Source of the DNA: Aureimonas pseudogalii
Lineage (GTDB): Bacteria; Pseudomonadota; Alphaproteobacteria; Rhizobiales; Rhizobiaceae
Length of the DNA: 64,000 nt
Assembly (NCBI RefSeq): GCF_014196835.1
Contig: NZ_JACIEK010000012.1
Span: forward strand, 1 to 64,000
Direction: 5' to 3'
Under the pieces are notes generated by a model. The model had not been told where the DNA came from. It saw only the letters and a program-made list of their open reading frames with translations, and did not search any database. Below, piece after piece: positions 7,771-27,899 of this stretch (within the stretch, counting starts at the first letter, position 1; each line of letters opens with the position of its first letter). The position numbers and the translations under genes were made by a program.

Positions 7771-8283
7771 CTAAAACTCCACACGCAACAGGTTGGCCAC
7801 TTGGGCAGTCCCCAGCTTCGAAAACCAGAAGCCTAATTTCTCCGAGGCCGGTCCAACGTGCTTGACGCGCTCCGGGAGCACCAGCTTCTTCGGTTTTGGT
7901 TCTGGCGTGTTCGCTCTCAAGGTCGCATCCTTGTAGTCCACCGATAGAAGGCGCCCGCTCACACCTACAGCGACAGACTGCAACGTCAGCGAGCGCAGCA
8001 GGAGCGCCCGCTCATGGACGGCTAGGAGCTGTTCTCGTTCCTTTCCTAGTTTGGCCGCAAAGAGGGCCAGCCCGGAGGGCCGGTTTGTCGAGGTCACGAT
8101 GTCGAGCGTCGCGCGATGCAGGATGATCGGAAGCAAAAGAAACGCCAGGGCGAATGGCACCGGGCGTTCGTCCTCAGCCTGAAAGCCTTGGCCAAACCGC
8201 CACAATGCAAACGCCCCGAGTCCCGGATTCTGGACTATCGCGAGGTCGCTGAGCGGCGGGCGCGATTGACCGATCTCAGTCAA
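7771..8283 (-). CDS. ABC-3C system middle component
   Basis: The 170-residue protein begins with IVQNPGLGAFALWRFGQGF and continues with an LLLPIILH segment and a C-terminal ERVKHVGPASEKLGFWFSK. This is the pattern of the small middle components that bridge ATPase and effector in three-component ABC systems. It has no catalytic motif that I can recognise. Its start overlaps the stop of the upstream nuclease gene by four bases (ATGA), and its stop abuts the ATPase start, so the three proteins are almost certainly made in fixed ratio. The assignment rests on position and N-terminal resemblance. Confidence 0.75.
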   Translation of the reverse strand: MTEIGQSRPPLSDLAIVQNPGLGAFALWRFGQGFQAEDERPVPFALAFLLLPIILHRATLDIVTSTNRPSGLALFAAKLGKEREQLLAVHERALLLRSLTLQSVAVGVSGRLLSVDYKDATLRANTPEPKPKKLVLPERVKHVGPASEKLGFWFSKLGTAQVANLLRVEF

Positions 8284-9446: not shown

Positions 9447-9625
9447 TGCCCAGCCCCAACCCTCCCGAGTCACAGTCTCGATGAGAAAACAGGAGGATAG
9501 TGGTGCAGATTCGCGTTGCTTACAATCGGCCCCCACGCAGGGGGCCCAAAAGCTCGTCGAGCTTACACACGATGTTTTCCCTACCGCCAAGCCGTCGCCT
9601 GAGCGTAACCGCCTTGGAGGGAGGC

Positions 9626-13187: not shown

Positions 13188-13201
13188 GTTCCGTACTCCG
13201 C

Positions 13202-13241
13202 GACGGGCGCCGAGAGCCACTCTCTCGACCCAAAACCCGTC
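13202..13241 (-). ncRNA. Leader stem-loop, radC RNA motif-like (parB)
   Basis: Outer arms GACGGG and CCCGTC enclose an inner CGAGAG/CTCTCG pairing and the shared TCGAGAGAG core, ending about 15 bases upstream of the parB ATG. It is nearly identical in layout to the DUF932 leader. A GCTTCGCT box just upstream on the minus strand is also shared by the two. Confidence 0.55.
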
Positions 13242-13267
13242 ACGAAGCGAAGCGCCGCCCTCTTCCT

Positions 13268-14146
13268 CTAAACCGCTGCCGCCAAGGGTGATGGATCGCG
13301 CTGCCGCGCCTCCAATCGCACGCCCAGCGAAGAAAGCACTTTCATGACGGTCATAAACTCGGGGTTTCCGCCGGCATCAAGGGAGCGGTAAAGACTTTCC
13401 CGCGCGAGGCCGGTTTCGCGAGCGACTTGGCTCATTCCTCGATCCCGGGCTATGGCACCCAGAGCATCGATGATCTGCGCGGCATCGCCCGAGGTCAGAG
13501 CGGCGTTCAGCGTCTCGATCGTTGCCGCTGATTGGGGCGCAATCTGAGGCTCGATGTTGCGATCTGCGCCAGCCCCGGTTGAAACATCGTGATCGAGCAG
13601 GCTCGCCTGTGGATCAGATTCGACAAGTGACCATTCCTGCGATGTCGCCCGTTCCCTCAGATCGGCGCGAAAGGCGGGATCGCAGCGCTGTATGAAGTCA
13701 CGATACTGATCGACGGTCTTGACGTTAACGGCCAGTTTGTCGGGCACGTTGAAGAGTACGGAAATCTTGCCCTCCTGCACGAGGCGCAGAACGTTCAGCA
13801 CCGTACCAGGGCTTTTGCCATCCCAGATCATCAGGCCGAAATCGGCCTCACGCGCCATCTCCCGATCCTTGGCGGCGTAGAACTGAAAGCCTTTCGTTCC
13901 TTTGGGAACATCGACATGATGCGTGGTCCACGATCCAAGATTGTTGCGCGGGGCATCGCCCGAACAGAAGACGGTCACGTTGGAGTAATGGGCGTCTAAA
14001 AAATGCTTCTGAACGGCCTTGTCGGCACCGTTCGCATCTCCGACGATGACCTGATGGTGGCTGGCGATGACATTGTCGAGGCGCTTCTTAACCTCGATCG
14101 GTAAACGGGAAACGTGTCGCGACCCTCCGATGAAGATAGTATTCAT
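13268..14146 (-). CDS. SLOG-like domain fused to HigA-type antitoxin HTH
   Basis: The 292-residue product has two parts. Residues 1-150 resemble a SLOG/YspA-type Rossmannoid nucleotide-binding domain: MNTIFIGGSR, VIVGDANGADKAVQ, CSGDAPRNN, then EADFGLMIWDGKSPGT. Residues 205-285 match the 'addiction module antidote' HTH (LNAALTSGDAAQIIDALGAIARD, MSQVARETGLARESLYRSL, FMTVMKVLSSLGVRLEA), normally a stand-alone antitoxin. No HigB/RelE toxin is adjacent. The gene overlaps the stop of a phosphoribosyltransferase gene as ATGA. SLOG-type domains recognise or cleave nucleotide-like ligands, so a nucleotide-responsive regulator is plausible; that is inference. Domain calls are by motif only. Confidence 0.65.
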   Translation of the reverse strand: MNTIFIGGSRHVSRLPIEVKKRLDNVIASHHQVIVGDANGADKAVQKHFLDAHYSNVTVFCSGDAPRNNLGSWTTHHVDVPKGTKGFQFYAAKDREMAREADFGLMIWDGKSPGTVLNVLRLVQEGKISVLFNVPDKLAVNVKTVDQYRDFIQRCDPAFRADLRERATSQEWSLVESDPQASLLDHDVSTGAGADRNIEPQIAPQSAATIETLNAALTSGDAAQIIDALGAIARDRGMSQVARETGLARESLYRSLDAGGNPEFMTVMKVLSSLGVRLEARQRDPSPLAAAV

Positions 14147-14736
14147 TGGTTGCTCCGGGTTTTGGTGATGGTCAGGGCGCGCACGACGGCTGCCTGACCA
14201 GGATCGATCAGAACCTCCGTGATTGCGTTCATCGTCGTGCCCGAGCGGAAGAGATCATCGAAAAGTAAAATCTTGCGGCCGCGCGTCTGCACTTTGTCGA
14301 TGGCGTAAAGTCCCCTGACATGCTCCTTGCGCTCGTCTGGATCGGTGATGTTCTTGAGTTGGCCCGTCGGGCGGGTTGTGGCTATGCAAGACAGAACGGG
14401 TACACCCAGAATTTTGGCTATTCCCTCAGCTAGAACGATTACGGGCTGTAGAGCGCGTTGATGTGATGGCGGAACGGGAACAATGCAGTCGAACTTTTCA
14501 CGATGACGAGACAGGTAGTTGGCCGTGGTTTCGATAATGGGATCGGCGGCTGAACGATCTGCCTTGTTTTTGAGGCGATAGAGACATTCCGCGATCTCAG
14601 GCCGAACCGTATCGAATTGCATATGACCGAATTCATTATAGCCGGTCGGTGTGCTGCTCGTCGTATGAAGATCGAGCGCAACACCGGACTTCCACAGACC
14701 AGCTATTTTGGTCGGATTGATAGCAACGATCGCCAT
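14143..14736 (-). CDS. ComF-like phosphoribosyltransferase
   Basis: This 197-residue protein carries the ComF/type I PRTase pattern: DCIVPVPPSHQRALQP, LAEGIAKILGVPVL, then a TGQLKNITDPDERKEHV segment and the PRPP-binding loop KILLFDDLFRSGTTM. Enzymes of this fold move a base onto, or off, phosphoribosyl pyrophosphate. The first ~70 residues (MAIVAINPTKIAGLWKSGVALDLHT) are not typical of ComF. It is translationally coupled to the SLOG-HTH gene, which points to a shared nucleotide-related task rather than competence. The ATG at 14736 was chosen since upstream codons do not look like protein. The base composition is more AT-rich than parB. Confidence 0.75.
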   Translation of the reverse strand: MAIVAINPTKIAGLWKSGVALDLHTTSSTPTGYNEFGHMQFDTVRPEIAECLYRLKNKADRSAADPIIETTANYLSRHREKFDCIVPVPPSHQRALQPVIVLAEGIAKILGVPVLSCIATTRPTGQLKNITDPDERKEHVRGLYAIDKVQTRGRKILLFDDLFRSGTTMNAITEVLIDPGQAAVVRALTITKTRSNQ

Positions 14737-14822
14737 TCGCCGGCTCCTTTTGCTCACTGTGACCCATGGGCTACAAATAAGCAAGGCTAGCGAATGGCTT
14801 CAAGCGATCATGGCTTGAAGGC

Positions 14823-14862
14823 GCGAAGCCGGAGATACGGAAGGACGCATCTCCGGCTTCGC
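14823..14862 (-). terminator. 14-bp perfect hairpin after the DUF932 gene
   Basis: GCGAAGCCGGAGAT and ATCTCCGGCTTCGC form a 14-bp perfect stem with a 12-base loop, only five bases beyond the native DUF932 stop at 14868. There is no clear T-tract. A second weaker hairpin (CTTCAAGC/GCTTGAAG, 14799-14820) follows. Its position supports 14868 as the true end of the DUF932 gene. Confidence 0.55.
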
Positions 14863-14867
14863 GGATT

Positions 14868-16057
14868 TCAGGCGGCGCGGTCGAGCAGCTTCTTTGCCTT
14901 TGCCTCCATGTCGAGGCGGGCGTCCTGGTGCGGCTTGTCGCGCGCGATGGCGGTGATGCCCTGCACGAAATCGAAGATGCTCTCGGGCGGGCGGCCTTCC
15001 TCGGCCAGCACCGTTTCGATGATCCTGGCGTATCCGCCTTGGAGAAGTTGCGCCGCCGCAGGAAGTCGGTGCGGTCCTCATCGGTACGCGCGACAATCCG
15101 TTCCCGCGCCGCCTTGATGCCGTTGACGAACGGCATCGGCGACGAGTTGGCGAAGTTCATGAGGGCGGGCGCGGCCTCGTGCGCGAAGCGATTGGCGGCG
15201 TATTTGGAATGCCGGATCGAGATTTCCTCGAAGTCCTCGACGCCCCAGAGGTTTCGATTCTGGCACACGGCGCGCAGGTAGAAGCTCGCCATGCCGAGCG
15301 TCTTGGCCCCGACCTCGGAATTCCAGGCGTAGAAGCCACGGAAGAACAGATCGGGCGAGCCGTCCGGCAGTCGCCCCGCCTCGATCGGGTTCAGATCGTC
15401 GACCAAGAACAGAAAGACATCGCGATCCGAGGCGTAGAGCGTGGTCGTGGCCGTGGTGATGTCGACACGCGGATTGTAGATGCCGGTCGACCAGTCGAGC
15501 ACGCCAGGCACCTTCCAGCGGGTATCGCCCGTGCCGTTACCGGCGATGCGCTGCACGGCTTCCACCAGTTCATGGTCGTAGATGCGGCCGTAGTCCGGCC
15601 CGGTGACGGCGCGCAGCTCGGTGCGGCCGTCCTCGGTCTCGAAGGTCTTGATCTGCTCGGCGCGATTGGACGTCAGGCCGAATTGCAGGTTGATGGCGGC
15701 GAGCGGCGCGGGTAGCTGGCGCAGATAGGCGGCGGGAGCGCCGACCTGGGCGGCGAGCTGGCCGAAGCTCCAGTGCGTCGGCGCGACCGGGGCGTCGGCG
15801 CCGGGCAGGATCAGCGACAGCCGCTCGGGATCGTTGCGGCTCGCCTCGACATGGATGAGGGCGCTTTCGACGATGCGGGTGCGACTGCGATCGGCGCGGT
15901 CGCGCACCGAGCGCGCGAGGTCCGACAGCGACAGGAAGCGCTCGTCCGCCGGCCGCGAGAACCATTCCGACGATACGCGGCCGATCCTCTGGCCGCGCGA
16001 CACATCCACCTTGTAGCCGCCGCTCGTATCGCGGCGCGCATCGAGAACCTGGGTCAT
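14868..16057 (-). pseudogene. DUF932 protein, frameshifted near the C-terminus
   Basis: The first 340 residues follow the DUF932 phage/plasmid family (MTQVLDARRD, THWSFGQLAAQVGAPAAYLRQLPAPLAA, VTGPDYGRIYDHELV, LYASDRDVFLFLVDD, RAVCQNRNLWG). Near 15034-15038, after RRRNFSKA, one base appears to be missing. The natural continuation YARIIETVLAEEGRPPESIFDFVQ lies in the adjacent frame and ends at the stop 14868, giving 396 residues. The uncorrected frame runs on through a hairpin to 14771 with non-protein-like sequence. DUF932 proteins are widespread on mobile elements; function unknown. Only the last ~55 residues are affected, so partial activity cannot be excluded. Confidence 0.8.
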
Positions 16058-16070
16058 GGGAGATCTCCAT

Positions 16071-16109
16071 GACGGGCGCCGAGAGCCTCTCTCTCGAACC
16101 TGACCCGTC
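16071..16109 (-). ncRNA. Leader stem-loop, radC RNA motif-like (DUF932 gene)
   Basis: Outer arms GACGGG/CCCGTC, inner CGAGAG/CTCTCG and the TCGAGAGAG core lie 14 bases before the DUF932 ATG at 16057. Differences from the parB leader fall in loops (for example TCAGGT in place of TTTTGG), while the paired arms are unchanged. Confidence 0.55.
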
Positions 16110-16188
16110 ACGGAGCGAAGCGGCATTCCCTCGCTCTATTGGAGACGGGTCAGCCCTGATGCTGGACCCAGACCGGTCACTTGACCGA

Positions 16189-16831: not shown

Positions 16832-18136
16832 TTACGTATATAGGCGCCGGGAGCGTTTGAGACTGTCAGCGAGGGCGGAGGCTACGGCTGGGCATTCGCT
16901 TTCGACAAGATTGGCGACACCAATACGCACTGCCGGCTTGCTTTTAATGCGGAACACCTCGCCTGCCTGAATAGACCAGCCACGAGATAGCATGGCCTGA
17001 ACAACATCGCCTTCTCGCTCGACGGGAACCCAGACGTGCAGGCCGGATGAGCCGAATGCTTCGATGCCGTTGGAGGCAAGCTGCTCGATCAGGGATCGAC
17101 GACGTGCCTCGTAGCTGCGCGCTGCGGCCCTCATGAGAGCGGTGGTTTCGGGTGCTGACCACATCTCATAGGCGAGACGCTGGAGTATATGGCTGACCCA
17201 CCGTGGGCCTAGCGCTTGCTGATCCCGGACCCGGGCGATGGTTACGCTGTCACCGGCAGCCAAGGCGAGCCGAAGATCAGGCCCGAGGAACTTAGAAACC
17301 GATCGGATCGTCATCCAAGGCCGCTTCTCCGGATCGGAGGGTGCGGAACTGACCGGCAACGCACCGGACACTTCGCCAGCGTGATCGTCTTCCAATAGGA
17401 GAACGCCTGGATTCACATCGAGAACTTGACCAAGTTCGGCAGCTCGATCAGCTGTCATCCGCCTGCCACTCGGATTTTGCGCGCGCGGTGTCAGCACGAC
17501 TGCGCAGGCGCCTTTTTTCACGGCGTCTGACAATGAGTCGGGTCGAACGCCATCCTCGTCCATCTGCAACGCGATGATCGGAAATTCCATCGCCCGAAGC
17601 AGGTGCAATACGGAAACGTAACCGGGATCCTCCACGGCCACCGCACTTTCGGGAGATAGGCGAGCACGCAATGCCCGTTCGATCGCATCGATCGATCCGG
17701 AGATGACCGCGATCTCGGTCGCCGGCAAACCATCGGCGACGAAGCGTGAGCGTCCGAAGGAAACGAGACGCTCCTCGTCGTCAGCCATCTCGTACCCGCC
17801 AGGGGCGTGCGCAAGGTGGCCAAGATAGGCATCGAGCCGTGGCAGGAATTGTGGATCGACGTTGCCAGACGCCAGGTCTCTTACGTCCAAGGGATGGCTT
17901 ACGCTTTCACTCGGTATCAACGCTACGCGCGAGCCTTGCCGGCCAGCTCCTATGATCAGCCCTGCGTCACGAAGCCTTGAGTATGCCGAGGTTACCGTAT
18001 TTCGATTCACGCCCAGCCGATCCGCGACTTCGCGAACAGGCGGCAATTGCTCGCCCGCTTCAATCTGACCTTGGCGAATCGCAATCTCCAGATTGCGGGC
18101 GATCTCAGCCGATGTCCGCCCTTCCAGTATGTCCAT
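16832..18136 (-). CDS. MocR-type regulator (GntR HTH plus aminotransferase fold)
   Basis: This 434-residue protein has an N-terminal GntR winged helix (GQIEAGEQLPPVREVADRLGVNRNTVTSAYSRLRDAGL) and a fold-type I aminotransferase-like domain. The latter includes the PLP-lysine segment RSVSKFLGPDLRLA and the NPSGRRM motif. MocR regulators use PLP (or its imines) as effector and often control vitamin B6 or amino-acid genes. The start at 18136 follows a clear GAGGAG; the longer reading upstream lacks one. It is divergent from the diiron oxygenase operon across a 435-base region with repeated TGGCAT motifs, so control of that operon is likely. It resembles PtsJ-like members, but the symbol is not certain. 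Confidence 0.85.
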   Translation of the reverse strand: MDILEGRTSAEIARNLEIAIRQGQIEAGEQLPPVREVADRLGVNRNTVTSAYSRLRDAGLIIGAGRQGSRVALIPSESVSHPLDVRDLASGNVDPQFLPRLDAYLGHLAHAPGGYEMADDEERLVSFGRSRFVADGLPATEIAVISGSIDAIERALRARLSPESAVAVEDPGYVSVLHLLRAMEFPIIALQMDEDGVRPDSLSDAVKKGACAVVLTPRAQNPSGRRMTADRAAELGQVLDVNPGVLLLEDDHAGEVSGALPVSSAPSDPEKRPWMTIRSVSKFLGPDLRLALAAGDSVTIARVRDQQALGPRWVSHILQRLAYEMWSAPETTALMRAAARSYEARRRSLIEQLASNGIEAFGSSGLHVWVPVEREGDVVQAMLSRGWSIQAGEVFRIKSKPAVRIGVANLVESECPAVASALADSLKRSRRLYT

Positions 18137-18571
18137 CTTCGCTCCTCGACAACACATTCCAAGCGCTTTGCTCAATCAATTGGCATAGGTCAATTTTGTT
18201 GACGTCGTCTCTACGCCTCTTTGCGCTGTGATGCGAGCCTAGAGCAGAAAACGATTTGTAACGCGGCCTGTCCCACCCTGACCGCGGGTGATTCCTATGG
18301 AATATAAGTACCTAAACGCCCGGTCAAAAGGTGCTTTCGCCGGTTGCGGTATGTCGCTCGCCCGCTGTCAAACCGACTGGCTGAGCGGTCTCCATTACCT
18401 ACGAGGTCGCAGCAGGGATACTTTTCCCATCAGCTTATGTGGACATGGCCCTTCAGTTTTGGCATGGGCCATTTTGCCATGATGCTTATGCCATTAAGCG
18501 AGTCGCGGGCTTCCCTCGGCGATCGTGAAGTCTAGCGAGGCCAATGAGCAGAAGGCAGGAGGGTATGAACC
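18137..18571. promoter_or_regulatory. Divergent control region with TGGCAT operator-like repeats
   Basis: This region without a gene separates the MocR gene from the oxygenase operon. TTGGCAT occurs at 18180-18186 and 18459-18465, TTGCCAT at 18474-18480 and TATGCCA at 18487-18493, forming direct and inverted half-sites near both start points. AGGAGG lies at about 18556-18561 before the oxygenase ATG. Between roughly 18240 and 18450 I see no coding frame or strong structure. The operator role is inferred from position and repetition. Confidence 0.45.
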
Positions 18572-19537
18572 ATGGATGCAAGTCTGATTGGATATGACCA
18601 CCACGACGAGCCGTCACAGTCGCGGCAGTTGCTTCTTCGGATCAGCGAGAGCTGGAACACGCGAGCCAAGGTTCGCCGAGAGGCGCTTGATCTCACATTC
18701 GAGCCAGCACGGGACGATTTTCTCGAAACCCTGCTCCCATTCCATCAGCACCCACTTTATCAAGCGTTGAGCGAATGCGACCGGCAGCGCATCCTGTCGT
18801 GCGGCTGGCTGATCTACAACGACAAGACGGTTGCCATCGAAACTGCCATCGTCACACCGAGTTGCAACGACGCTCTCGAAGGACGCATTCCTGGCTTGGA
18901 AGGCGGGCTGATGCGAAAGCTGGTCTGCGAGACGCTGGTGGATGAGGCCTATCATCTCCTGCTGGTCGAGAATGCCAGCCGCATCACACGGCATTATCGC
19001 GGATTGGGCGACATTCGCATTCCGACCTTCAACCTCGTTCGCTTCATGGAAGAAGCGAAAGCCGGCTGCTCCGAGGGCTGGCAGCGCACGCTTGTTCAGT
19101 TGGCTACCTCCGTCGTGTCGGAAATCTTCGTCAGCGACTATCTGCATCAGCTATCCGACTGCCATACGATCCAGACACTGAACCGCGCCACCGTTGCCGC
19201 GCACCGTCACGATGAACTGGCTCACAGCAAGGTCTTCACCGGCCTCGCCGAAACCTTCTATCCCGCCTTGGATCGCAAACAGCAGGCATTCTTCGCCGAG
19301 GTTCTGCCCAAACCGATCGAGTGGTTCGCCGACATGGAGTTGGACATCTGGGATGACGTCTTAGCGCAATTGGGCATTGTGCAGGGTCGGACGATCGTTG
19401 CCGACTGCCGCCCGATGAATGCCAATGCTGTCCGGCGGGTCGATTATTCAGGCGTCGTGAATCTCGGGCGCAACATCGGCGTCTTCGACACGATGAACGG
19501 GCGGGATAGTTTCGGACTTCTGGGAATCGCAGCCTGA
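18572..19537 (+). CDS. AurF-type diiron N-oxygenase
   Basis: This 321-residue protein shows all seven AurF diiron ligands with near-identical spacing: Glu90, Glu125 and His128 (DEAYH), Glu184 (VVSEIF), His211, Glu215 and His218 (HRHDELAH). AurF-family enzymes are soluble diiron oxygenases that oxidise amines, such as p-aminobenzoate, to hydroxylamine and nitro products, mostly in natural-product pathways. The substrate here cannot be read from the sequence. A rubredoxin and a FAD reductase gene follow, supplying electrons from NAD(P)H. The ATG follows AGGAGG by about ten bases; a nearer ATG in another frame runs quickly to a stop. The transcription unit diverges from a MocR regulator. Confidence 0.85.
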   Translation: MDASLIGYDHHDEPSQSRQLLLRISESWNTRAKVRREALDLTFEPARDDFLETLLPFHQHPLYQALSECDRQRILSCGWLIYNDKTVAIETAIVTPSCNDALEGRIPGLEGGLMRKLVCETLVDEAYHLLLVENASRITRHYRGLGDIRIPTFNLVRFMEEAKAGCSEGWQRTLVQLATSVVSEIFVSDYLHQLSDCHTIQTLNRATVAAHRHDELAHSKVFTGLAETFYPALDRKQQAFFAEVLPKPIEWFADMELDIWDDVLAQLGIVQGRTIVADCRPMNANAVRRVDYSGVVNLGRNIGVFDTMNGRDSFGLLGIAA

Positions 19538-19566
19538 AGCCTCGCTGAAATGCTGGAGACGATATC

Positions 19567-19761
19567 ATGATCGCCAATGTCCAGGCAGACTATATGCTCC
19601 CGATCTATGCCTGCATCCTATGCGAATATGTATATGATGAAAAAATGGGTTTACCTGAAGAAGGTATTCCTCCCGGCACCGCATGGAAAGATATCCCAGA
19701 AGACTGGTGCTGCCCGGATTGCGGCGCCACGAAGCATGATTTCGTGGTCAAGGATTACTGA
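19567..19761 (+). CDS. Rubredoxin
   Basis: A 64-residue protein with the two CxxC iron ligands of rubredoxin: [12 protein letters not shown] and [13 protein letters not shown], with the usual [15 protein letters not shown] between them. The N-terminal extension of about ten residues is short. Rubredoxin is a one-electron cytosolic carrier. It lies 29 bases after the AurF-like gene and before a pyridine-nucleotide-dependent reductase, so it most likely feeds the diiron enzyme, as alkane hydroxylase rubredoxins do for their oxygenase. Confidence 0.92.
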
Positions 19762-19855
19762 AATCGCGGCAGAGCCTCCGGAGGCGGAAGATCTATCTCG
19801 TGGCATTGCGATGCCGCCCGCCATCCATCGGGCGGGATCGATCTACGGAATCCAT

Positions 19856-21091
19856 ATGACCATGCAATTCGATATTATAATCGTAGGCGGCGGCCACGGG
19901 GGTGCCCACACCGCAGTCGCGTTGAGGCAATCCGGTTTCAAGGGAAGCATCGCGATCCTGACTGCCGAAGCAGATGCGCCCTACGAACGACCACCGCTGT
20001 CCAAGGAGTATCTCGCAGGTCGCAAGCCGTTCGAACGACTCCTGATCCGTCCCCCGGAATTCTGGGCGGACCGTGCTGTAACACTCCGCACTCACGAGCG
20101 TGTCGTCGCGATCGACGCGGCGAGGAGACAGGTCACCACCGAAAGCGGTGTCAATTTCGGATACGGTGATCTCGTATGGGCCGCAGGCGGCGAAGCGCGA
20201 CGCTTAAGCTGCGGTGGTCACGACCTAGATGGGGTTCATACGGTTCGGACCAGAGCGGATGTTGACCGGCTGCACCGGGACATGGCGATCAGCGAACGGG
20301 TGATCATTGCCGGAGGTGGCTATATCGGCCTCGAAACGGCGGCAACCCTTACCGGGTTGGGGAAGCAGGTCACCGTCATTGAAGCCAGTCCGCGCCTTCT
20401 GTCGCGTGTCGCCGGGCCATCTATTTCGCGGTTCGTAGAACGCGAGCATCGCTCCAACGGCATCGATGTCCGACTTTCGAGTGTGATTGATCGTGTCGAG
20501 GGAGTTGCCGGGCGGGCATGTCGCGTTGTGCTGGCGGATGGCGAGTCGTTGTCAGCCGATCTCGTGATCGTCGGCATCGGCATCGATCCGGTAGTCGAGC
20601 CGCTTCGCATAGTCGGTGCGGCCACCGGAAATGGCGTGATCGTTGACGAACTCGGAATGACGATGCTTCCCAATATCCATGCGATAGGCGACTGCGCGCT
20701 TCAGCCCCATCCTTTCGCATCGGGTCGCTTGATCCGGATCGAGTCGGTGCAGAACGCCGTCGAGATGTCGGGAACCGTCGCGAGGGCGCTCTGCGGTGAG
20801 GCTCCTGTTGCCCGTAGTGTTCCATGGTTCTGGTCGCACCAGAACGACCTGCGGCTCCAAACGATCGGCTTCGCGCTCGACCACGACAGAGAGGTGATCC
20901 ATGGCAACATGGCGGATGGGCGCTTTTCTGTCGCCTATGTGCGAGACGACCATGTGATTGCGATCGACTGCGTCAATGATCCCAGGTCCTTCGTGGAGGC
21001 TCGCTCACTATTCTCGGCGCCAACTGAAAATCAACGACTCGATCAGCGCTTCCTGATCAGCACATCGGAGACGACCAGCACAGAGAGATAG
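19856..21091 (+). CDS. FAD-dependent rubredoxin/ferredoxin reductase
   Basis: This 411-residue flavoprotein has an N-terminal FAD-binding GGGHGGAHTAVALR (residues 9-22), the PYERPPLSKEYL motif, a NAD(P)H-binding IIAGGGYIGLETAATL (about 145-160) and the second FAD motif IHAIGDCA (about 275). A reductase C-terminal domain follows (FWSHQNDLRLQTIGF). It belongs to the oxygenase-coupled NADH-ferredoxin/rubredoxin reductase family. The start MTMQFDIIIVGGG is placed at 19856 because the preceding frame overlaps rubredoxin and is not protein-like. It closes a three-gene unit (oxygenase, rubredoxin, reductase) and converges with the LysR gene nine bases away. Confidence 0.9.
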   Translation: MTMQFDIIIVGGGHGGAHTAVALRQSGFKGSIAILTAEADAPYERPPLSKEYLAGRKPFERLLIRPPEFWADRAVTLRTHERVVAIDAARRQVTTESGVNFGYGDLVWAAGGEARRLSCGGHDLDGVHTVRTRADVDRLHRDMAISERVIIAGGGYIGLETAATLTGLGKQVTVIEASPRLLSRVAGPSISRFVEREHRSNGIDVRLSSVIDRVEGVAGRACRVVLADGESLSADLVIVGIGIDPVVEPLRIVGAATGNGVIVDELGMTMLPNIHAIGDCALQPHPFASGRLIRIESVQNAVEMSGTVARALCGEAPVARSVPWFWSHQNDLRLQTIGFALDHDREVIHGNMADGRFSVAYVRDDHVIAIDCVNDPRSFVEARSLFSAPTENQRLDQRFLISTSETTSTER

Positions 21092-21100
21092 AGGGGTTAG

Positions 21101-21706
21101 TCACCTCCGATCGGCAGTGTAGATCTGTTCTTGACCTCCAATCGTTCCGCCGGAGAAGAGACAGATCAAAGGGTTTCCGTCGAACTTGCCAAAGAGATCG
21201 ATCAATTCGGCGCCTTTACTCTTGGACCTTTCAAGAACGATCCCGCATTGCGCGTCGCGCGCAACCGGGAGCAGGGCTAAATCAATCGGAGATGTTCGCA
21301 GGGCTGTGAGAAGCGCTTCGATGATGGCTATCAAAACGCTTGGGGTTATTTCTGCCAAGTCCGCAAGGGAGATCTCGTCAGCGACGTTATCAGTATCGAT
21401 TGCTGGATCTGTGTCCGGACATTTCGATCGCCTCTCCTCGCGCAGCAACGTGAATGAAACGTCACGCGCTCGAGTCAGACAGTCGAGCGCCTCACGAGCG
21501 TGTGCGATGAACCCCTGACCGGAAGCGGTTACCTGAACCCCGCCGCTGCTCCGCACGAAGATCTTGACGTCCAGCATCGCCTCCAGATCCCGAATGCGTC
21601 GGCTGACGGAGGAGGGGCGAACCCCGAGCGCCCCGGCCGCGCGCCGGAAACTGCCATGGTCGGCGGCAGCGAGTGCGCAGCGGAGATGGCGTAGCTCGAT
21701 GGTCAC
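21101..21706 (-). CDS. Short LysR-type regulator
   Basis: This 201-residue protein has a standard LysR winged helix (LRHLRCALAAADHGSFRRAAGALGVRPSSVSRRIRDLEAML). The effector-binding part is much shorter than the usual ~200 residues, and the last 100 residues (ALLPVARDAQCGIVLERSKSKGAELIDLFGKF) only weakly resemble the family. It may be a truncated regulator that still binds DNA. Its start overlaps the pyridoxal kinase stop (ATGA), making it the last gene of the minus-strand B6 operon. Confidence 0.75.
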   Translation of the reverse strand: MTIELRHLRCALAAADHGSFRRAAGALGVRPSSVSRRIRDLEAMLDVKIFVRSSGGVQVTASGQGFIAHAREALDCLTRARDVSFTLLREERRSKCPDTDPAIDTDNVADEISLADLAEITPSVLIAIIEALLTALRTSPIDLALLPVARDAQCGIVLERSKSKGAELIDLFGKFDGNPLICLFSGGTIGGQEQIYTADRR

Positions 21707-22521
21707 ATGCGGTCCGGGCGCATCTTCTCGATCACCACCATTTCGGCGCGGCCCTCGGCAGCCGTCCGCCGAAGAACGTCGTTCATTCGCTCAACGGCTC
21801 CCGCTGCTGCCGTGGGTAGCGAACGACCCTCTCCCAGAGCGCCGATCATGAAGGCCGTCAGCAGGTCACCCGTCCCGGCAGGCCGGATGTCCAGACGGCG
21901 CGACCGAAGGAAGGTCATGCCGTCCGGCTCACAAACGACCGTCGTCAGTTCGTCGGCCCGTTCGCCGACGAAGTGGCAACCTGTCACAACGGCGCGCGGG
22001 CAGCCAGCCACTACCAGACGAGAACGGGCACCCGCGAGGTCCTCTCGCGTCGCGATCGACCTTCCCGTCAGCAGTTCCAGTTCGAACTGGTTCGGCGTGA
22101 CAATGTCGGCGGCCGGCACAAGGCGGCCAGCGAATACCTCAAGGATGCCGTTGGCGACATAGACGCCGGTATCGCTGTCGCCCATTACGGGATCGCAGAC
22201 ATAGGTGAGCTTCGGGTTGTGTGCCTTCGCGCGTGCCACGAAATCCGCAACAACCTCGGCGATCGCCGCCGATCCGAGATAGCCGGTTACGAGGAACGAG
22301 GCTTCCTCGATGATCCCACGCTCCTCGACGCCGAGCAGCAGGTCGGCGACGAGCGCGGCATCGAGCACCTGCCCGCGCATGGTCGGATAGTGCGGGTGGT
22401 TCGACAGAAGCGTGGTCGGCACAGCCGCGACCTCGATGCCCGCCGCCTGCATCGGAAAGACCGCAGCGCTGTTGCCGACATGACCGTGGACGACCTGGCT
22501 CTGGATCGAGATCACCTTCAT
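21703..22521 (-). CDS. pdxY: Pyridoxal kinase
   Basis: The 272-residue protein follows the PdxY/PdxK ribokinase-fold pattern: MKVISIQSQVVHGHVGNSAAVFPMQ at the start, NHPHYPTMRGQ, VCDPVMGDSDTGVYV, DIVTPNQFELELLTG and the catalytic GTGDLLTAFMIGAL. It phosphorylates pyridoxal to PLP in the salvage pathway. The ATG at 22521 gives the canonical N-terminus. It lies between glyA and the short LysR gene, and supplies cofactor for the PLP enzyme and the two PLP-type regulators of this cargo region. It is probably an extra copy carried on the element. Confidence 0.92.
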   Translation of the reverse strand: MKVISIQSQVVHGHVGNSAAVFPMQAAGIEVAAVPTTLLSNHPHYPTMRGQVLDAALVADLLLGVEERGIIEEASFLVTGYLGSAAIAEVVADFVARAKAHNPKLTYVCDPVMGDSDTGVYVANGILEVFAGRLVPAADIVTPNQFELELLTGRSIATREDLAGARSRLVVAGCPRAVVTGCHFVGERADELTTVVCEPDGMTFLRSRRLDIRPAGTGDLLTAFMIGALGEGRSLPTAAAGAVERMNDVLRRTAAEGRAEMVVIEKMRPDRM

Positions 22522-22597
22522 GGCGCATCTTTTCGCAGGCGAAGCTGCCAGGAACAGGCAGGCAGGATGAAACGCTTTGTCGGGCGGCGCATTCTCC

Positions 22598-23875
22598 TCA
22601 CCGTTCGATCGGATGAGAGGCGGTGAGGCGTGCAACAGATCCACGGATACCCGCTTCGTCGACCGATCCGGCACGAACGCCGTTCAACACGGCGAGGATC
22701 AACGTCCCGACCTCTTCGAACTGCGAGATCCCGAAGCCGCGCGAAGTCGCGGCAGGCGTACCTACGCGGATACCCGACGGGCGTGCCGGCGGATGCAGGT
22801 CGAAGGGAATGGCGTTCTTGTTCACGGTCAGCCCGACACGCTCCAAAGCTTCGGCCGCGGTGCGGCCGTCGATGCCGAAAGGCGTCACGTCCACGAGCAG
22901 CAGATGGCAATCGGTACCGCCGGTGACCAGGCGCAGGCCGCCCTCCTGAAGCACGCTGCCGAGCGCCTGCGCATTGTCGATGACTTGCGCAGAGTAGCGT
23001 CGGAAGTCGGCGCCCAGCGCCTCGCCGAAGGCAACCGCCTTTGCGGCGACGACGTGCATCAGAGGCCCCCCCTGGATCCCCGGGAATACCGCCTTATCGA
23101 CGCGGCGCCCGATTTCCTCGTCGTTTGAGAGAATGATGCCACCGCGGGGACCGCGCAGCGTCTTGTGCGTTGTCGAGGTCACGACATGGGCATGCGGAAC
23201 GGGGCTGGGATAGAGGTCCGCTACGATCAGGCCGGCATAGTGGGCGATATCGGCCACGAGGAAAGCGCCGACCTCATCGGCAATGGCGCGAGCACGAGCG
23301 AAGTCGATGCGTCTTGCATAGGCCGATCCTCCCACGAGGATCAGCTTCGGCCGCGTCTGCCGCGCGATCCTGGCGAGATCGTCATAGTCGATGTGTTCGT
23401 CGTCGCGCCGCACCTGGTAGGTCACGGCCTTGAACCAGCGGCCCGACACGGTGACGGGCGAGCCGTGGGTCAGGTGGCCGCCGCAGGCCAGATCGAGGCC
23501 GAGAATCGTATCGCCCGGCTGCAGGAGCGCGAAGAAGACCGCGAGATTGGCACTCGCACCGCTATGCGGCTGAACATTCGCCCAGACGGCGTCGAACAGC
23601 CGGCGAACGCGGTCGATCGCCAATTGCTCGATTCGGTCCGACGGGCCGCACCCCCCATAGTAGCGGCGTTCCGGATAGCCCTCGGCATATTTGTCGGTGA
23701 AGACGGAGCCTTGCGCTGCGCGAACCGCACGGCTGGCGATGTTCTCCGAGGCGATCAGTTCGATGCCGTCATGCTGCCGGGCCTCCTCAGCCTCGATGGC
23801 CATCAGCACTTCGAGGTCGCCAGCAAGCGAGTGAAGATCGAGCGCAGTTTCGACCATGGGTACGGCTGACGTCAT
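22598..23875 (-). CDS. glyA: Serine hydroxymethyltransferase (GlyA paralogue)
   Basis: This 425-residue PLP enzyme carries the main SHMT signatures: [70 protein letters not shown] and the Schiff-base lysine segment [18 protein letters not shown] interconverts serine and glycine with tetrahydrofolate. Because it sits in a B6 operon on an island rather than with housekeeping genes, it may be a specialised paralogue (for example an aldolase or alpha-methylserine enzyme). I cannot tell these apart by eye. The start MTSAVPM at 23875 gives the normal N-terminal length. Confidence 0.88.
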
Positions 23876-23895
23876 CGCAAATCCTTCGATATACT

Positions 23896-24597
23896 TTAGG
23901 CAATCGGGGCGGGTGGCGTGCCATCGAGGCGCGGGCTCCAGTCCTCGACGGTTCGGGTGGAAAGGCGGTGTTCCGCGAGACGCCGCCAGCTTTCCGGCAG
24001 TCCTGGCAAGGCGGCCATGCCGGTCAGTTCGCCGCGATCGAGCGGGGCGACGTAGAGGAGGTGCCACAGGCGGTGGAGTGACCAGCCGGGCAGGCGCCGG
24101 TCGAGGAGCAGGAGGGTATCACCCGGTGAGACCAAGCCATCCTCCAGAACGCGATAGTACCAGCCGGTGCGCCCGGTCGTCTGGACGCGCCGCGCCATGT
24201 CGGCGACGCCGAAGCGATGATTGAGCTTCCAGCAGGGCTGCCGGCCCTGCGAGACCTCGATCACCGCGGAGCCGAGCCGGAAGACGTCGCCGATCGCGAC
24301 CGTTTCTTCGGTCAGGCCGAGGGTCGACAGATTCTCGCCGAACGCACCCGGCGCGGCGAGCACGTCGCGCGTCCCGATCTCCCTCAGCCACTTGGCGTAG
24401 TGCTCGAACGGATAATGATGGACAGCTTTGTCGGGGCCGCCATGGCGCTTTCGGTCGCCTTGCGCGTCGCCGGAGAAGCCGTCGCGGCGCAAGCGAACCG
24501 GGGCTTGCACGGGTCGCTTGTCGATACCGCTCGGTATGCGCGTTGGACCGAACGGGCTGATATCGCCGACGAGAAGCGCGCCCAAGACAGTCTTCAT
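23896..24597 (-). CDS. MOSC-domain protein, YiiM-like
   Basis: The 233-residue protein has the MOSC pattern, with [50 protein letters not shown] and [14 protein letters not shown], where the Cys is the putative molybdenum ligand. E. coli YiiM, of this subfamily, uses molybdenum cofactor to reduce N-hydroxylated bases such as 6-hydroxylaminopurine. Its presence next to an AurF-like N-oxygenase suggests handling of N-oxidised compounds, an inference from context. The ATG at 24597 overlaps the amidotransferase stop (ATGA). Confidence 0.85.
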
Positions 24598-25301
24598 GGC
24601 ACGCGTAGGTCGCCGAGCCATTCGGCGAACATCGCGCGGCCAGCGTCCCGCAGGCGAAGCCCATGGCGCTCGGCGTCTGCCCTCAAGGCTCGCGGATCGA
24701 CGCCGACGGCCGCCAGTTCGTGAGCATGCCCGATCAGCCAGCGTTCGAAACCGGCCGCGGCATCGACTTCCGGGTGGAACTGCACACCCATCACGTTGCG
24801 TCCGTGCGCGAAGGCCTGGTTAGCGCAGACCGCCGTCTCCGCAAGGCGGTCTGCGCCATCGGGAATGTCGAACATGTCGCCATGCCAGTGCAGCACCGGC
24901 ACATCCTTGAGATGACGCAGGACGAACGCTTCGCCTCCCGTGGTCAGGTCCAGGGGAGCGAAGCCGATCTCCTTGGTGCCCGTCGGGCGAACCTTGGCGC
25001 CGAGCGCGGCAGCGATCAGCTGGGCGCCGAGGCAGATGCCGAAGGTCGGGCGATCCGCCGCAAGCCGGGTTCGCAGGAAATCAAGCTCGTCGGCGAGGAA
25101 CGGATAGGTCTCGGTCTCATAGACCCCGACCGGGCCGCCGAGCACGATCACAAGCTCCGTCTTCACCGGTTCCAAGGTCCAGATCTCGTGGACGCCGATG
25201 TCGTAGTAGTGGACCTTGTAGCCGGCGGCCGCGAGCACCGCCTCGAAGGACCCGAGATCCTCGAACGCCACATGGCGCAGCGCCACCGCCGTCTTCAGCA
25301 T
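24594..25301 (-). CDS. Class I glutamine amidotransferase
   Basis: This 235-residue protein is a stand-alone class I glutamine amidotransferase. It has the nucleophile Cys in TFGICLGAQLIAAALG and the His-Glu pair in GVQFHPEVD, with LVIVLGGPVGVYE upstream. It resembles the GMP synthase-like amidotransferases (YfeJ and gamma-glutamyl hydrolase relatives). It may release ammonia for an unknown partner or hydrolyse a glutamyl conjugate. It is coupled to both neighbours (TGATG with the glutaredoxin-like gene, ATGA with the MOSC gene). Confidence 0.85.
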   Translation of the reverse strand: MLKTAVALRHVAFEDLGSFEAVLAAAGYKVHYYDIGVHEIWTLEPVKTELVIVLGGPVGVYETETYPFLADELDFLRTRLAADRPTFGICLGAQLIAAALGAKVRPTGTKEIGFAPLDLTTGGEAFVLRHLKDVPVLHWHGDMFDIPDGADRLAETAVCANQAFAHGRNVMGVQFHPEVDAAAGFERWLIGHAHELAAVGVDPRALRADAERHGLRLRDAGRAMFAEWLGDLRVP

Positions 25302-25540
25302 CAGCGCGACTCCAGCGCCGAGAGGTCGGCTCCGTGGTTGATGTGATAGGCGGCACCATCGATCACGAGAGCCGGGACGGAGCGCACGCCTGCCGCCTTC
25401 GCTTCCGCGACACGAGCCGGAGCCTCGCCGAGGTGGACGCTCTCCACCTCGTAGCGGCTAAGGTCCAAGGCGCCGGCGACGTGCTGCTCCGCATCGACAC
25501 AGACCGGGCAGCCCGCGTGATAGAAGATCGCTTTGGTCAT
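25301..25540 (-). CDS. Glutaredoxin/thioredoxin-like small protein
   Basis: A 79-residue thioredoxin-fold protein with a CPVC redox motif (FYHAGCPVCVDAEQHV) and the conserved cis-proline segment VRSVPALVIDG. It is shorter than glutaredoxin but complete for the fold. It is the first gene of the six-gene minus-strand operon, back to back with a MocR-type regulator. Likely role: thiol redox control or delivery of reducing power to an operon enzyme. Substrate unknown. Confidence 0.8.
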   Translation of the reverse strand: MTKAIFYHAGCPVCVDAEQHVAGALDLSRYEVESVHLGEAPARVAEAKAAGVRSVPALVIDGAAYHINHGADLSALESR

Positions 25541-25601
25541 GATGATCGTCCTTTGGATTGTCGGCGGGAACGATCTATGGCCTACGTTGGTCGTGGCTGG
25601 T

Positions 25602-27086
25602 ATGGATGTGCCGGTTTCGAGAATAGAGCTAGGCCGGTCGATGCTGGAGATCGCGTTCGAGTTGGACGAGCACTCAGCGGCGCCGGTCTTCCTCCAACTC
25701 AGCCGGGCCATCATTGCGGCGATCGACGCCGGCCGACTGGAGCCGGGCCGAAAGTTGCCCGGCACGCGGGCGCTGGCCGTGTCTTTGAAGATCCACCGCA
25801 ACACGGTCGATGCCGCCTATCACGAGGCGGTCATGCAGGGCTGGCTCGTCGCCGAGCCATCGCGCGGCACCTTCGTCGCTCGCGATCTGCCGGCGATGCC
25901 GACCGCCGGTTCGATCCATCCCGGTCCTGCAGCGGAAAAAGGTCGGGTTCGAAGCACGGTCTCTCTGCCGACGTGCGGTGGGCCACCGATGCTGTTCTTC
26001 TCGGACGGCGCGCCCGACGCGAGGCTGCTGCCGCGGGCGGAACTGGCAAGGGCCTTCAGGCGCGCGCTGACGACGCCGGAGTTCCTACGCGCCTCGGGCT
26101 ATGGCGACCCCCGCGGCGCACTTGCACTGCGGGAGGCGCTCTGTGAGCATCTCTCGGCGGAACGCGGCCTTGCGCTGGCGCCCGCCGACATCCTCGTGAC
26201 ACGCGGCAGTCAGATGGCGCTGTTTCTGGCCGCCGGCGCATTGCTCGAGCGGGACGAGGTGATCGCAGTGGAAGAGCCGGGCTATCCGCTTGCCGTCACC
26301 GCTTTCCGTGCGGCGGGCGCGCGGGTCGTGGGCGTTCCCGTCGACGCCGACGGATTGTCGGTCGAGCATCTCGAGCGCTTGGCGGTATCCGAGCAGAAGC
26401 TGCGTGCCGTCTACGTCACGCCGCACCACCAATATCCGACGACGGTGACGATGGGCGCCGGGCGCCGGATCCGTCTGCTGGACGTGGCGCGTCGTCACGG
26501 TCTGACGATCGTCGAGGACGACTACGATCACGAGTATCGCTTCGACGGCAAGCCGGTTCTGCCGCTCGCCTCGCGCGCAGGTGACGTGCCGGTCCTCTAT
26601 GTCGGATCCCTGTCCAAGGTGCTCGCGCCGGGCATACGCCTTGGCTACGCGACGGGACCGGTCGACCTGCTCCAACGCATGGCCGACGATCGTCAGGCGA
26701 TCGACCGCCAGGGAGACGTGCCACTGGAGCACGCCGTCGCGATTCTCCTGCGGGAAGGTGACCTCGGCCGCCATGCTCGCAAGACGCGGAGAATCTATCA
26801 GGCCCGGCGTGATCTCTTGGCGCGCTCGTTGACGAGCAAGCTCGGCGCTTACCTCGATTTTGCGATCCCGCCGGGTGGTCTCGCGCTGTGGACGCGATTG
26901 CTACCCGGGCTCGACGCTGAACGATGGAGCCACGAAGCACGGCGTCACGGTTTGGCTGTCACGCCTGCGATGTCGCAATGCCTTGACCTCGTGCGTGCCC
27001 CGCAAGCCTTTCGGCTAGGCTTTGCGAGCCTTGACGACGTTGAAACGAGCCGAGCTGTCGAAATCCTCGCAATGACGATGCCATAA
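25602..27086 (+). CDS. MocR/PdxR-type regulator
   Basis: This is a second GntR-aminotransferase fusion regulator, about 494 residues. The HTH (RLEPGRKLPGTRALAVSLKIHRNTVDAAYHEAVMQGWL) is followed by a fold-type I aminotransferase-like domain with YVTPHHQYPTTVTM, IVEDDYDHEYRF and the PLP-lysine segment LYVGSLSKVLAPGIRLGY. Its DDYDxEYR and SKxLxPxLR motifs are typical of PdxR-like MocR proteins, which sense PLP. It is divergent from the glutaredoxin-amidotransferase-MOSC-glyA-pdxY-lysR operon and likely controls it. The start is uncertain: MDVPVSR (25602) or MLEIAFEL (25641). The reading from 25533 overlaps the divergent gene. Confidence 0.85.
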   Translation: MDVPVSRIELGRSMLEIAFELDEHSAAPVFLQLSRAIIAAIDAGRLEPGRKLPGTRALAVSLKIHRNTVDAAYHEAVMQGWLVAEPSRGTFVARDLPAMPTAGSIHPGPAAEKGRVRSTVSLPTCGGPPMLFFSDGAPDARLLPRAELARAFRRALTTPEFLRASGYGDPRGALALREALCEHLSAERGLALAPADILVTRGSQMALFLAAGALLERDEVIAVEEPGYPLAVTAFRAAGARVVGVPVDADGLSVEHLERLAVSEQKLRAVYVTPHHQYPTTVTMGAGRRIRLLDVARRHGLTIVEDDYDHEYRFDGKPVLPLASRAGDVPVLYVGSLSKVLAPGIRLGYATGPVDLLQRMADDRQAIDRQGDVPLEHAVAILLREGDLGRHARKTRRIYQARRDLLARSLTSKLGAYLDFAIPPGGLALWTRLLPGLDAERWSHEARRHGLAVTPAMSQCLDLVRAPQAFRLGFASLDDVETSRAVEILAMTMP

Positions 27087-27321: not shown

Positions 27322-27507
27322 TTGTCTCCACAGGTGGCCGTTGTCTCCACAGGCGCCGACTCATGTCTCCAATAGCGTATCGGGCAAAAGGTGAGACGGC
27401 AGCGGAAGTGGGGCCGTAAACGCTACCGTATCCGAAAGCCGCCGTGAGCTAGCGTTCCGCTGGAGACAATATGGAGACAAGCCGCATCCTCACAGGATAT
27501 GTCTCCA
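27322..27507. repeat. Six TGTCTCCA copies near the tRNA-Gly end
   Basis: TTGTCTCCACAGG occurs twice as a perfect 13-base direct repeat (27322-27334, 27341-27353; spacing 19). Further TGTCTCCA copies lie at 27364-27371 and 27500-27507, with inverted copies TGGAGACA at 27461-27468 and 27472-27479. Clustered short sites just inside an element end resemble integrase arm or excisionase sites. That role is inferred. Confidence 0.6.
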
Positions 27508-27527
27508 GAAAAGATCCCGCAGGGATC
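27508..27527 (-). terminator. Rho-independent terminator of tRNA-Gly
   Basis: Read from the tRNA (minus strand), GATCCC-TGC-GGGATC is followed at once by TTTTCT, about 32 bases beyond the CCA end. Confidence 0.65.
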
Positions 27528-27558
27528 CTCATATATGATTGAATTTATACGTAAAATT

Positions 27559-27633
27559 TGGAGCGGGCGATGGGATTCGAACCCACGACCCCAACCTTGG
27601 CAAGGTTGTGCTCTACCACTGAGCTACGCCCGC
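27559..27633 (-). tRNA. tRNA-Gly (anticodon GCC), putative attachment site
   Basis: The 75-base minus-strand gene begins GCGGGCGTAGCTCAGTGG, has the anticodon stem-loop CAACC-TTGCCAA-GGTTG with anticodon GCC, the T-loop GGGTTCGAATCCC and an encoded CCA end. All four stems pair. Its 3' end faces the mobile-element genes, the standard geometry for tRNA-targeting integrases. On the other side lie core chromosomal genes. The tRNA itself looks complete and functional. Confidence 0.95.
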
Positions 27634-27899
27634 CCGCTCCCCGCTGGCGTCGCCGTGTGGCGTGCGCTGCGGATGAGCGGCTTATCGCCGATTCGGATTT
27701 AGATTGCAACAGGGAAAAGACGGTCGATGCGTCGGTTCGTCGTTCCCTCTGCCGCGGAGGAGGGGCGGGCGCCGCGACGCCGCGGAGCGGGAGGCGTCGG
27801 GCGCGCCATCCGGGTCCGGCTTGACGATCGGGCGGCCTGCGCGCCATGGAGGCGGGGAACGATCCGAGGGGCTTGCAAGGCCGGCAGGGAGAGGACGAC

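Follow-up and report, generated by a model that had tools for sequence, protein, structure and literature searches.

The first 64,000 nucleotides of contig NZ_JACIEK010000012.1 of Aureimonas pseudogalii (hereafter the window, meaning this whole stretch of DNA) contain a unit of three same-strand genes at positions 18572-21091, and open reading frames (ORFs) together with profile matches confirm that these encode a diiron oxygenase of the AurF family, a rubredoxin and a flavin adenine dinucleotide (FAD) reductase. An initial annotation had described an AurF-type enzyme with its own rubredoxin and reductase, which gene order and profile matches support, and had called the triad self-contained, which they do not: a class-I glutamine amidotransferase (GATase) and, in most loci, a serine hydroxymethyltransferase (SHMT) and a MocR regulator accompany the oxygenase in other genomes. 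The reading we favour, with a little more than even confidence, is that the triad forms the oxidising part of a mobile, rubredoxin-driven cluster that resembles, and works like, the gene cluster for Dirammox. This recently described route of ammonia/glutamine oxidation is disputed, and direct oxidation of glutamine by the oxygenase DnfA is contested.

The window oxygenase is an AurF-family diiron enzyme with a CmlI-like fold, and its match lies far above chance level. It scores 166.1 bits in a profile search with Pfam AurF (PF11583; curated cut-off 29.6) and carries the ligand set E90, E125, H128, E184, H211, E215 and H218. The EEHEHEH pattern is kept in all 19 rows of our alignment, the window counted, and the ligand spacings are 35, 3, 56, 27, 4 and 3 in the window protein and 35, 3, 57, 27, 4 and 3 in AurF, exactly the numbers quoted in the initial annotation. 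The same spacings as in the window enzyme are found in DnfA, whose ligands are given in a passage of PMC9478400 as E88, E123, H126, E182, H209, E213 and H216. We dropped the spacing of 56 as a DnfA signature: the full set with 56 is common to the DnfA-type rows of loci L027 (genome G615) and L036 (G1009) and to homologues from Burkholderia glumae, G847 and B. stagnalis, and because these non-DnfA homologues carry it, it says nothing on substrate. (Names for genomes with handles are inferred only: Delftia for G615 and G1009, Pantoea/Pseudomonas for G745, G701 and G554, and Burkholderiaceae for G1031 and G847.) An AlphaFold2 model built from 12 sequences (mean pLDDT 86.5, pTM 0.83) is predicted to set the seven ligands on four helices, with E90 in 68-102, E125 and H128 in 112-143, E184 in 169-195 and H211, E215 and H218 in 202-232, a result that concerns helix placement only. 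Foldseek with this model returned nine PDB matches at E ≤ 0.001, all of them CmlI or AurF chains (E 1.8e-15 to 8.7e-11, TMq 0.75-0.81).

Rubredoxins and reductases of the BphA4/putidaredoxin reductase type serve alkane hydroxylase-type electron chains. The window holds the same two families, but its presumed acceptor is a soluble AurF-family enzyme, whereas that of alkane hydroxylase-type chains is the membrane protein AlkB. Rubredoxin adjoins the oxygenase in all six loci of the oxygenase's own clade (the window, L002, L004, L024, L025 and L034), and a tblastn search with the window rubredoxin found none in ten other AurF-family loci (L005, L006, L007, L026-L030, L035 and L036), counts from which L011 and the short loci of the phylum sample were left out. 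To call a dedicated rubredoxin unusual, as the initial annotation did, is therefore fair for the loci compared. The open-access literature, judged mostly from listings, yielded nothing on rubredoxin as a redox partner of an AurF/DnfA-type enzyme; the word "rubredoxin" in the pertinent passage of PMC11160463 denotes an unrelated zinc-ribbon protein. The reductase has two GxGxxG motifs and matches PDB 3lxd at E 2.3e-120; translation probably begins at the ATG at 19856, and a longer, mechanically called ORF from 19577 crosses the rubredoxin gene in another frame.

To the right of the triad, a minus-strand run encodes a GATase, a MOSC/YiiM-type protein, an SHMT, a pyridoxal kinase and the DNA-binding part of a LysR-type protein, whose place in the unit is doubtful, and to the left a divergent PtsJ-type MocR regulator is 58% identical to the MocR beside the clusters of Tistrella (Table 1). 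The GATase contains the GICLG and HPE motifs of the catalytic triad and has PDB 9xfs as its best structural match (E 2.1e-72). For the MOSC protein, PDB yiiM is matched at E 2.5e-47 and NF008577 at 185 bits, below the cut-off of 294; its single cysteine, C130 in QGRQPC, shows the Gln/Arg spacing of Q115/R117/C120 in E. coli YiiM. In the passages of PMC5818509 YiiM is involved in the reduction of an N-hydroxylated base and has an invariant cysteine, which the window protein keeps, making this protein, by analogy, a candidate reductase of N-hydroxylated compounds. The true start of the SHMT probably lies inside its ORF, and the conserved part of the pyridoxal kinase begins near 22527. Elsewhere in the genome (G000, 5.0 Mb) we found one other SHMT, 54% identical, at G000:C5, pyridoxal kinase homologues of at most 36% identity, a distant second MOSC match (E 2.8e-4) and, with seven of ten candidates scored, no second GATase at E ≤ 1e-30. 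The statement of the initial annotation that the unit lies outside any polyketide or peptide cluster agrees with the absence of polyketide synthase (PKS) and nonribosomal peptide synthetase (NRPS) genes in a scan that covered 20 proteins, all from the 5.1-27.1 kb part of the window.

This gene set invites comparison with the dnf genes of Dirammox. According to the passages of PMC9136411, dnfT1RT2ABCD encodes, in this order, a 3-phosphoserine-type transaminase, a pyridoxal phosphate (PLP)-dependent aminotransferase-family protein (DnfR, termed MocR-like in the title of another paper), an SHMT, the diiron N-oxygenase, a 2Fe-2S protein, a GATase and a pyridoxine/pyridoxal/pyridoxamine kinase, and DnfB is described in PMC9478400 as an FNR-like domain joined to a 2Fe-2S domain. 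Our dnf reference consisted of L027, supplemented by L036, and of PDB 9xfs, Alcaligenes sequences being outside the comparison. The L027 oxygenase has its ligands at the exact Alcaligenes DnfA numbers 88, 123, 126, 182, 209, 213 and 216. Genes for an FNR/Fer2 protein and for a GATase that, like the window's, belongs to NF005458 (339 bits) come after it, and SHMT and MocR genes lie upstream; L036 is arranged similarly. Identity between window and L027 is 31% for the oxygenase, 56% for the GATase and 57% for the SHMT. Like the dnf cluster of Alcaligenes, the window has regulators of the MocR family, an SHMT (here of the L027/L036 group), an AurF-family oxygenase, a class-I GATase and a pyridoxal kinase; unlike that cluster, it has a rubredoxin and a separate FAD reductase in place of DnfB, and it adds a MOSC gene, an island-like setting, a PtsJ-type MocR beside the oxygenase and an oxygenase of a separate clade. 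As to DnfR, the window has two MocR proteins, and L027's is of the PdxR type, as is the second of these. The features of DnfC, DnfT2 and DnfD are present (NF005458 for the GATase, the SHMT grouping and TIGR00687), and a DnfT1-like, SerC-type aminotransferase was absent from the 20 proteins scanned, smaller ORFs being outside that scan. Because neither a DnfB nor an oxygenase within the DnfA-type clade was found, the window is not a dnf cluster by strict membership; the gene set looks like a Dirammox variant in which electrons are delivered differently.

We then asked how consistently these genes travel together. Oxygenase matches occurred in five of the 385 genomes of the class sample (the window's own, three Tistrella at 65-66% and one at 23% identity), in eight of 398 of the phylum sample (the window's own and seven at 21-32%) and in four of 349 from the family of G615 (G1031 at 55%, the others at 32-33%). 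The three are called Tistrella because the match in one of them has the coordinates of that on plasmid pTM3 of Tistrella mobilis. On this plasmid (L004) a divergent MocR gene precedes, in this order, those for GATase, SHMT, oxygenase, rubredoxin and reductase, and the same six genes are found in G222 and G093 (L024 and L025). In G1031 (L034) the oxygenase, rubredoxin, GATase and MOSC genes follow one another on one strand; a MarR gene comes next and then a nitric oxide-inducible flavohemoprotein (526 bits, cut-off 432), with an NsrR-like Rrf2 regulator close by (116 bits, below the cut-off of 182). The whole triad recurs in Tistrella and an oxygenase-rubredoxin pair, with no reductase nearby, in G1031, and oxygenase, rubredoxin and GATase co-occur in three lineages, Aureimonas, Tistrella and G1031. 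As a control we used 28 related GATase loci without oxygenase from the phylum sample, with up to 8 kb on each side and some cut by contig ends; these were 28 of the 30 loci returned, the window and G615 having been left out, and 28 further matches came without a locus. None of the 28 had an oxygenase, a rubredoxin, a reductase or an SHMT gene nearby. By comparison, an SHMT lies near five of the six oxygenase loci other than the window (L004, L024, L025, L034, L027 and L036), a linkage with Fisher p = 2e-5 by locus and 8e-4 by lineage with the window included (3/4 versus 0/28), where the loci were picked via the oxygenase and loci and controls are not fully independent. The text of PMC11440038, in the passages concerned, names dnfABC homologues in Xanthobacter, Delftia, Pseudomonas, Burkholderia and others and neither Aureimonas nor Tistrella, and a rubredoxin-type locus may already be drawn in its supplementary homologue list; in open-access listings neither genus was found paired with dnfA or dnfABC, and one pairing of Tistrella with Dirammox appeared (PMC11617194).

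Phylogenetic trees add to this picture. The oxygenase tree comprised 19 rows with G307, G701 and G554 as outgroup; the remaining distant phylum-sample matches, one Embleya, two Rhodococcus and two Pantoea sequences and one from a B. glumae plasmid were left out. The window sequence forms a clade with those of Tistrella and G1031 (support 93/99), outside a clade of CmlI, AurF, pab-linked and B. stagnalis rows (92/93). The DnfA-type enzyme of L027 scores 152-164 bits with members of the window clade, versus 127 with CmlI and 99 with AurF, and strictly group-diagnostic columns unite the window with DnfA-type rows 11 times and with arylamine rows six times. In the SHMT tree (14 rows, midpoint root), the SHMTs of the window and Tistrella clusters (99/98) join the oxygenase-adjacent SHMTs of L027 and L036 (99/98) and stand apart from other SHMTs of the same genomes, among them a second SHMT near L027/L036. 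The cluster therefore has a special SHMT lineage in common with dnf-type loci. With the GATase tree (36 rows), neither a grouping of window, Tistrella and G1031 (p 0.26) nor one of the window with the L027 type (p 0.31) is rejected.

Sequence shows which genes are present, their motifs and linkage, the fold and how the SHMTs group; substrate, products, electron path, protection, regulation and mobility are inferred, the substrate from the neighbouring genes. The FAD reductase would take electrons from NAD(P)H and hand them via rubredoxin to the diiron centre, which would activate O2 and N-hydroxylate a side-chain amide nitrogen. The most likely substrate would be glutamine, giving glutamic acid gamma-hydroxamate, or else a close glutamine-derived compound, and the class-I GATase would hydrolyse the hydroxamate to free hydroxylamine. 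Because the gene set resembles a dnf cluster, the aryl- or alkylamines and amino-sugars first proposed as substrates are less likely than a glutamine amide or hydroxylamine. Hydroxylamine traps PLP, forming oximes, which would account for the gathering at this locus of a PLP enzyme, a PLP-forming kinase and PLP-binding regulators: the extra SHMT and the pyridoxal kinase would replace PLP functions damaged in this way, the YiiM-type MOSC protein would reduce unwanted N-hydroxylated products, and PLP-binding MocR proteins would control the unit. Literature passages on the dnf PLP genes, PMC9136411 among them, propose no such protective role and report no tested one. A stronger version, which we advance only tentatively and consider less likely than not, is that the island carries a second, rubredoxin-driven way of making hydroxylamine from glutamine, reached separately from DnfA/DnfB and with PLP attack built in, MocR sensing it via PLP and a spare SHMT, the pyridoxal kinase and the YiiM-type reductase affording protection.

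Published work on dnf proteins bears on this scheme. According to passages of PMC11440038 and PMC11160463, dnfABC gives hydroxylamine and glnA is required, and DnfC is reported in the latter to hydrolyse glutamine and Glu-hydroxamate. A passage of PMC11160463 also describes TsnB7, an AurF homologue that oxidises the glutamine amide in trichostatin biosynthesis, and TsnB9 transfers the hydroxylamino group (a passage of PMC13418202). The TsnB6/7/9 system of trichostatin A is alike in combining an AurF homologue acting on a glutamine amide with a partner that handles the hydroxylamino group, and unlike in its type of partner enzyme and its polyketide context, a likeness drawn from these partial descriptions and not from sequence. 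It provides the model for another, rather unlikely reading, in which the oxygenase and rubredoxin serve biosynthesis, introducing an N-hydroxy or nitro group into a small metabolite that the cluster's SHMT helps to make, with NH3 or NH2OH supplied or transferred by the GATase and free hydroxylamine not being the purpose. That an SHMT paralogue and a GATase accompany the oxygenase agrees with this, and one dnf paper makes a case for a function in secondary metabolism; on the other hand, the 20 proteins scanned include no acceptor-activating, ligase, PKS or NRPS enzyme, an SHMT is missing near the G1031 oxygenase, and the TsnB9 relative SaHAT is ATP-dependent as described in PMC13418202, whereas the window GATase shows only glutaminase-type Pfam domains.

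Several observations weigh against the Dirammox-like reading of the cluster. Two groups report that DnfA binds hydroxylamine and not glutamine, and the authors of PMC11440038, in the passage concerned, infer that glutamine is not the direct substrate. The L027/L036 and Pantoea-type oxygenase rows form a clade of their own (100/100) with the window outside it, Alcaligenes DnfA being absent from this tree; in the best tree window and DnfA-type clades are sisters with a support of only 52/34, and the alternatives have approximately unbiased (AU) p values of 0.283 and 0.351. Identity is 31% to the DnfA-type enzyme of L027 and 32-33% to CmlI and the pab-linked enzymes, and when diagnostic columns are counted by majority, 37 favour the DnfA-type and 53 the arylamine rows (6 versus 11 near the ligands). 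Since strict and majority counts conflict, diagnostic residues are weakened as evidence for either group. These tree and column results bear on whether the protein could be an arylamine N-oxygenase of the AurF/CmlI type, with a substrate that would be an aromatic amine of external origin or a product of shikimate metabolism, a reading which we consider improbable. CmlI and AurF, of the chloramphenicol and aureothin pathways, are its only solved relatives by sequence and its best by fold, the majority columns lean their way, and plant aromatics would be met if the strain is leaf-dwelling, as the name of its relative Leaf427 suggests. What it has in common with them, however, is the fold and the seven metal ligands, at 28-33% identity; it lies outside the CmlI/AurF/pab-linked clade, though a sister position is not firmly excluded, it has a dedicated rubredoxin, no pabB-type (chorismate-binding) gene occurs among the neighbours scanned, unlike in L005, L006 and L035, the TrpG/PabA match of its GATase reaches only 24 bits (cut-off 121), and a GATase and an SHMT accompany the oxygenase.

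Other difficulties for the Dirammox-like reading concern the accompanying genes. A single clade of the seven oxygenase-linked GATases and 9xfs is rejected (p 0.0097), the groups having been named after inspection of the tree, and the Tistrella GATases group with an unlinked copy (98/93); one origin for all of them was accordingly rejected, and because a clade of all eight is rejected, recruitment of the GATase was possibly independent. Both oxygenase and GATase may thus have been recruited, or have diverged, separately from the dnf-type ones. The GATase family is also common, occurring in 57 of 398 genomes. The window reductase is 55% identical to a stand-alone Sphingomonas enzyme versus 47% to that of Tistrella, and the 19 kb fetched around the G1031 oxygenase contain no reductase; for these two reasons it is weak as a conserved partner. 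The same 19 kb hold no SHMT, and the six other loci searched, L027 and L036 included, hold no pyridoxal kinase. Near the 28 control GATases a MOSC gene occurs four times and a PtsJ-like MocR (38-39%) also four times, three of these in one family. Such MOSC-GATase and MocR-GATase pairs without oxygenase, together with the opposite strands of the two gene sets in the window and the LysR fragment between them, would suit a very improbable alternative in which two unrelated passengers share the island, the triad as a detoxifying oxidase and the GATase-MOSC-SHMT-PdxY genes as a vitamin B6 salvage unit. GATase and oxygenase nevertheless run in the same direction in Tistrella and G1031, and among the loci compared SHMT is near a GATase only where the oxygenase is present.

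Table 1. Features of the window discussed in the text.
Feature	Position	Strand	Remarks
PtsJ-type MocR regulator	16832-18175	-	Divergent from oxygenase; NF012025 349 bits, best family, below cut-off 573
Intergenic gap with two TTGGCATRKG sites	18176-18571		Sites at 18180 and 18459; candidate operator; pattern picked after inspection
AurF/CmlI-family diiron oxygenase (DnfA-like)	18572-19537	+	321 aa; PF11583 match, ligands, fold
Rubredoxin	19567-19761	+	64 aa; PF00301 75 bits; CxxC motifs CILC and CPDC
NAD(P)H:rubredoxin (ferredoxin) reductase, BphA4/putidaredoxin reductase type	19856-21091	+	Pyr_redox_2 204 bits, Reductase_C 71 bits
LysR-type protein, DNA-binding part only	21101-21706	-	HTH_1 only, 201 aa
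Pyridoxal kinase (DnfD-like by family)	21703-22674	-	TIGR00687 230 bits, above cut-off 144.5
Second SHMT (DnfT2-like)	22598-24067	-	NF000586 577 bits
MOSC/YiiM-type protein	23896-24621	-	MOSC 132 bits, YiiM_3-alpha 51 bits
Class-I GATase-like protein (DnfC-like)	24594-25301	-	NF005458 326 bits, above cut-off 250
Second MocR regulator, PdxR type	25533-27086	+	Beyond GATase, reads away from run; NF052282 340.6 bits, above cut-off 320

The stretch from 5.1 to 27.1 kb appears, judging by its composition and distribution, to be a foreign-looking and mobile genomic island. Third-position GC is 0.58-0.82 in selected ORFs of about this region, with 0.90 for a ParB-like ORF, and mostly 0.81-0.97, with few lower values, in flanking ORFs. 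A tRNA-Gly gene is located at 27559-27633, tRNA being the only kind of Rfam element between 5 and 28 kb, and no exact stretch of at least 14 bases from 27501-27700 recurs elsewhere in the window as an attachment repeat. Within 10989-16126 on the minus strand lie the ParB-like gene (PF02195 22.6 bits, below the cut-off of 26.3) and a gene whose plasmid counterparts are annotated as DUF932, and the island is 74.6-80.1% identical in DNA to the best 10 of 192 plasmid records, 27 records having an unlisted best place at 95-99%. A search for the oxygenase found no homologue in 60 relatives other than G000, and in the order sample G000 itself is the one positive among 347 genomes. The nearest relative for the locus is Aureimonas sp. 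Leaf427 (L002; oxygenase 99% identical), the one relative found by a single-protein contig scan that detects close relatives only. At 13269-14826 the window has about 1.5 kb with two genes, for an addiction-antidote-like domain protein and a phosphoribosyltransferase-like protein below cut-off, where Leaf427 has about 180 bases (L002 5040-5224). Also on this island, consecutive minus-strand genes at 5806-9590 encode a DUF3732 protein, an ABC-three-component middle component 3 and a CTD7 protein, likely, from their families, an ABC-3C defence-type system.

The gap between the PtsJ-type MocR and oxygenase genes contains the only two matches to TTGGCATRKG in the whole window. Their half-site TTGGCAT, present there as two direct copies, is shared with the MocR-GATase gap of Tistrella, where L004 8975-9002 forms a perfect palindrome, CACATGCCAA-8-TTGGCATGTG. 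The half-site is not enriched across the window (6 matches, 3.5 expected) and occurs at chance frequency in L034, L072 and L073.

Related genes were also encountered in other arrangements. GATase-MOSC/YiiM pairs without oxygenase are present in L041/L070, L052/L079, L063/L089 and L065/L091. On a Pantoea agglomerans plasmid (L026, 5390-11173), a DnfA-type oxygenase with an iron-sulfur partner and no annotated GATase adjoins genes for an arylamine N-acetyltransferase, a major facilitator superfamily (MFS) transporter and an ATP-grasp protein, another orphan AurF-family pathway. On a Burkholderia stagnalis plasmid (L007, 2940-14622), an AurF-family oxygenase lies within an acyl carrier protein/ketosynthase cluster that also holds an iron-containing redox enzyme and a ferredoxin-NADP reductase.

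A distinct oxygenase clade in which the GATase and a special SHMT persist but rubredoxin is used would be a natural comparison for Dirammox, in that the shared parts, GATase and SHMT, are likely to be the important ones and the swapped part, DnfB, to be replaceable. Collectively, the Dirammox-like context gives an orphan AurF-family enzyme a concrete candidate substrate and adds Aureimonas and Tistrella to the genera in which this chemistry may occur.

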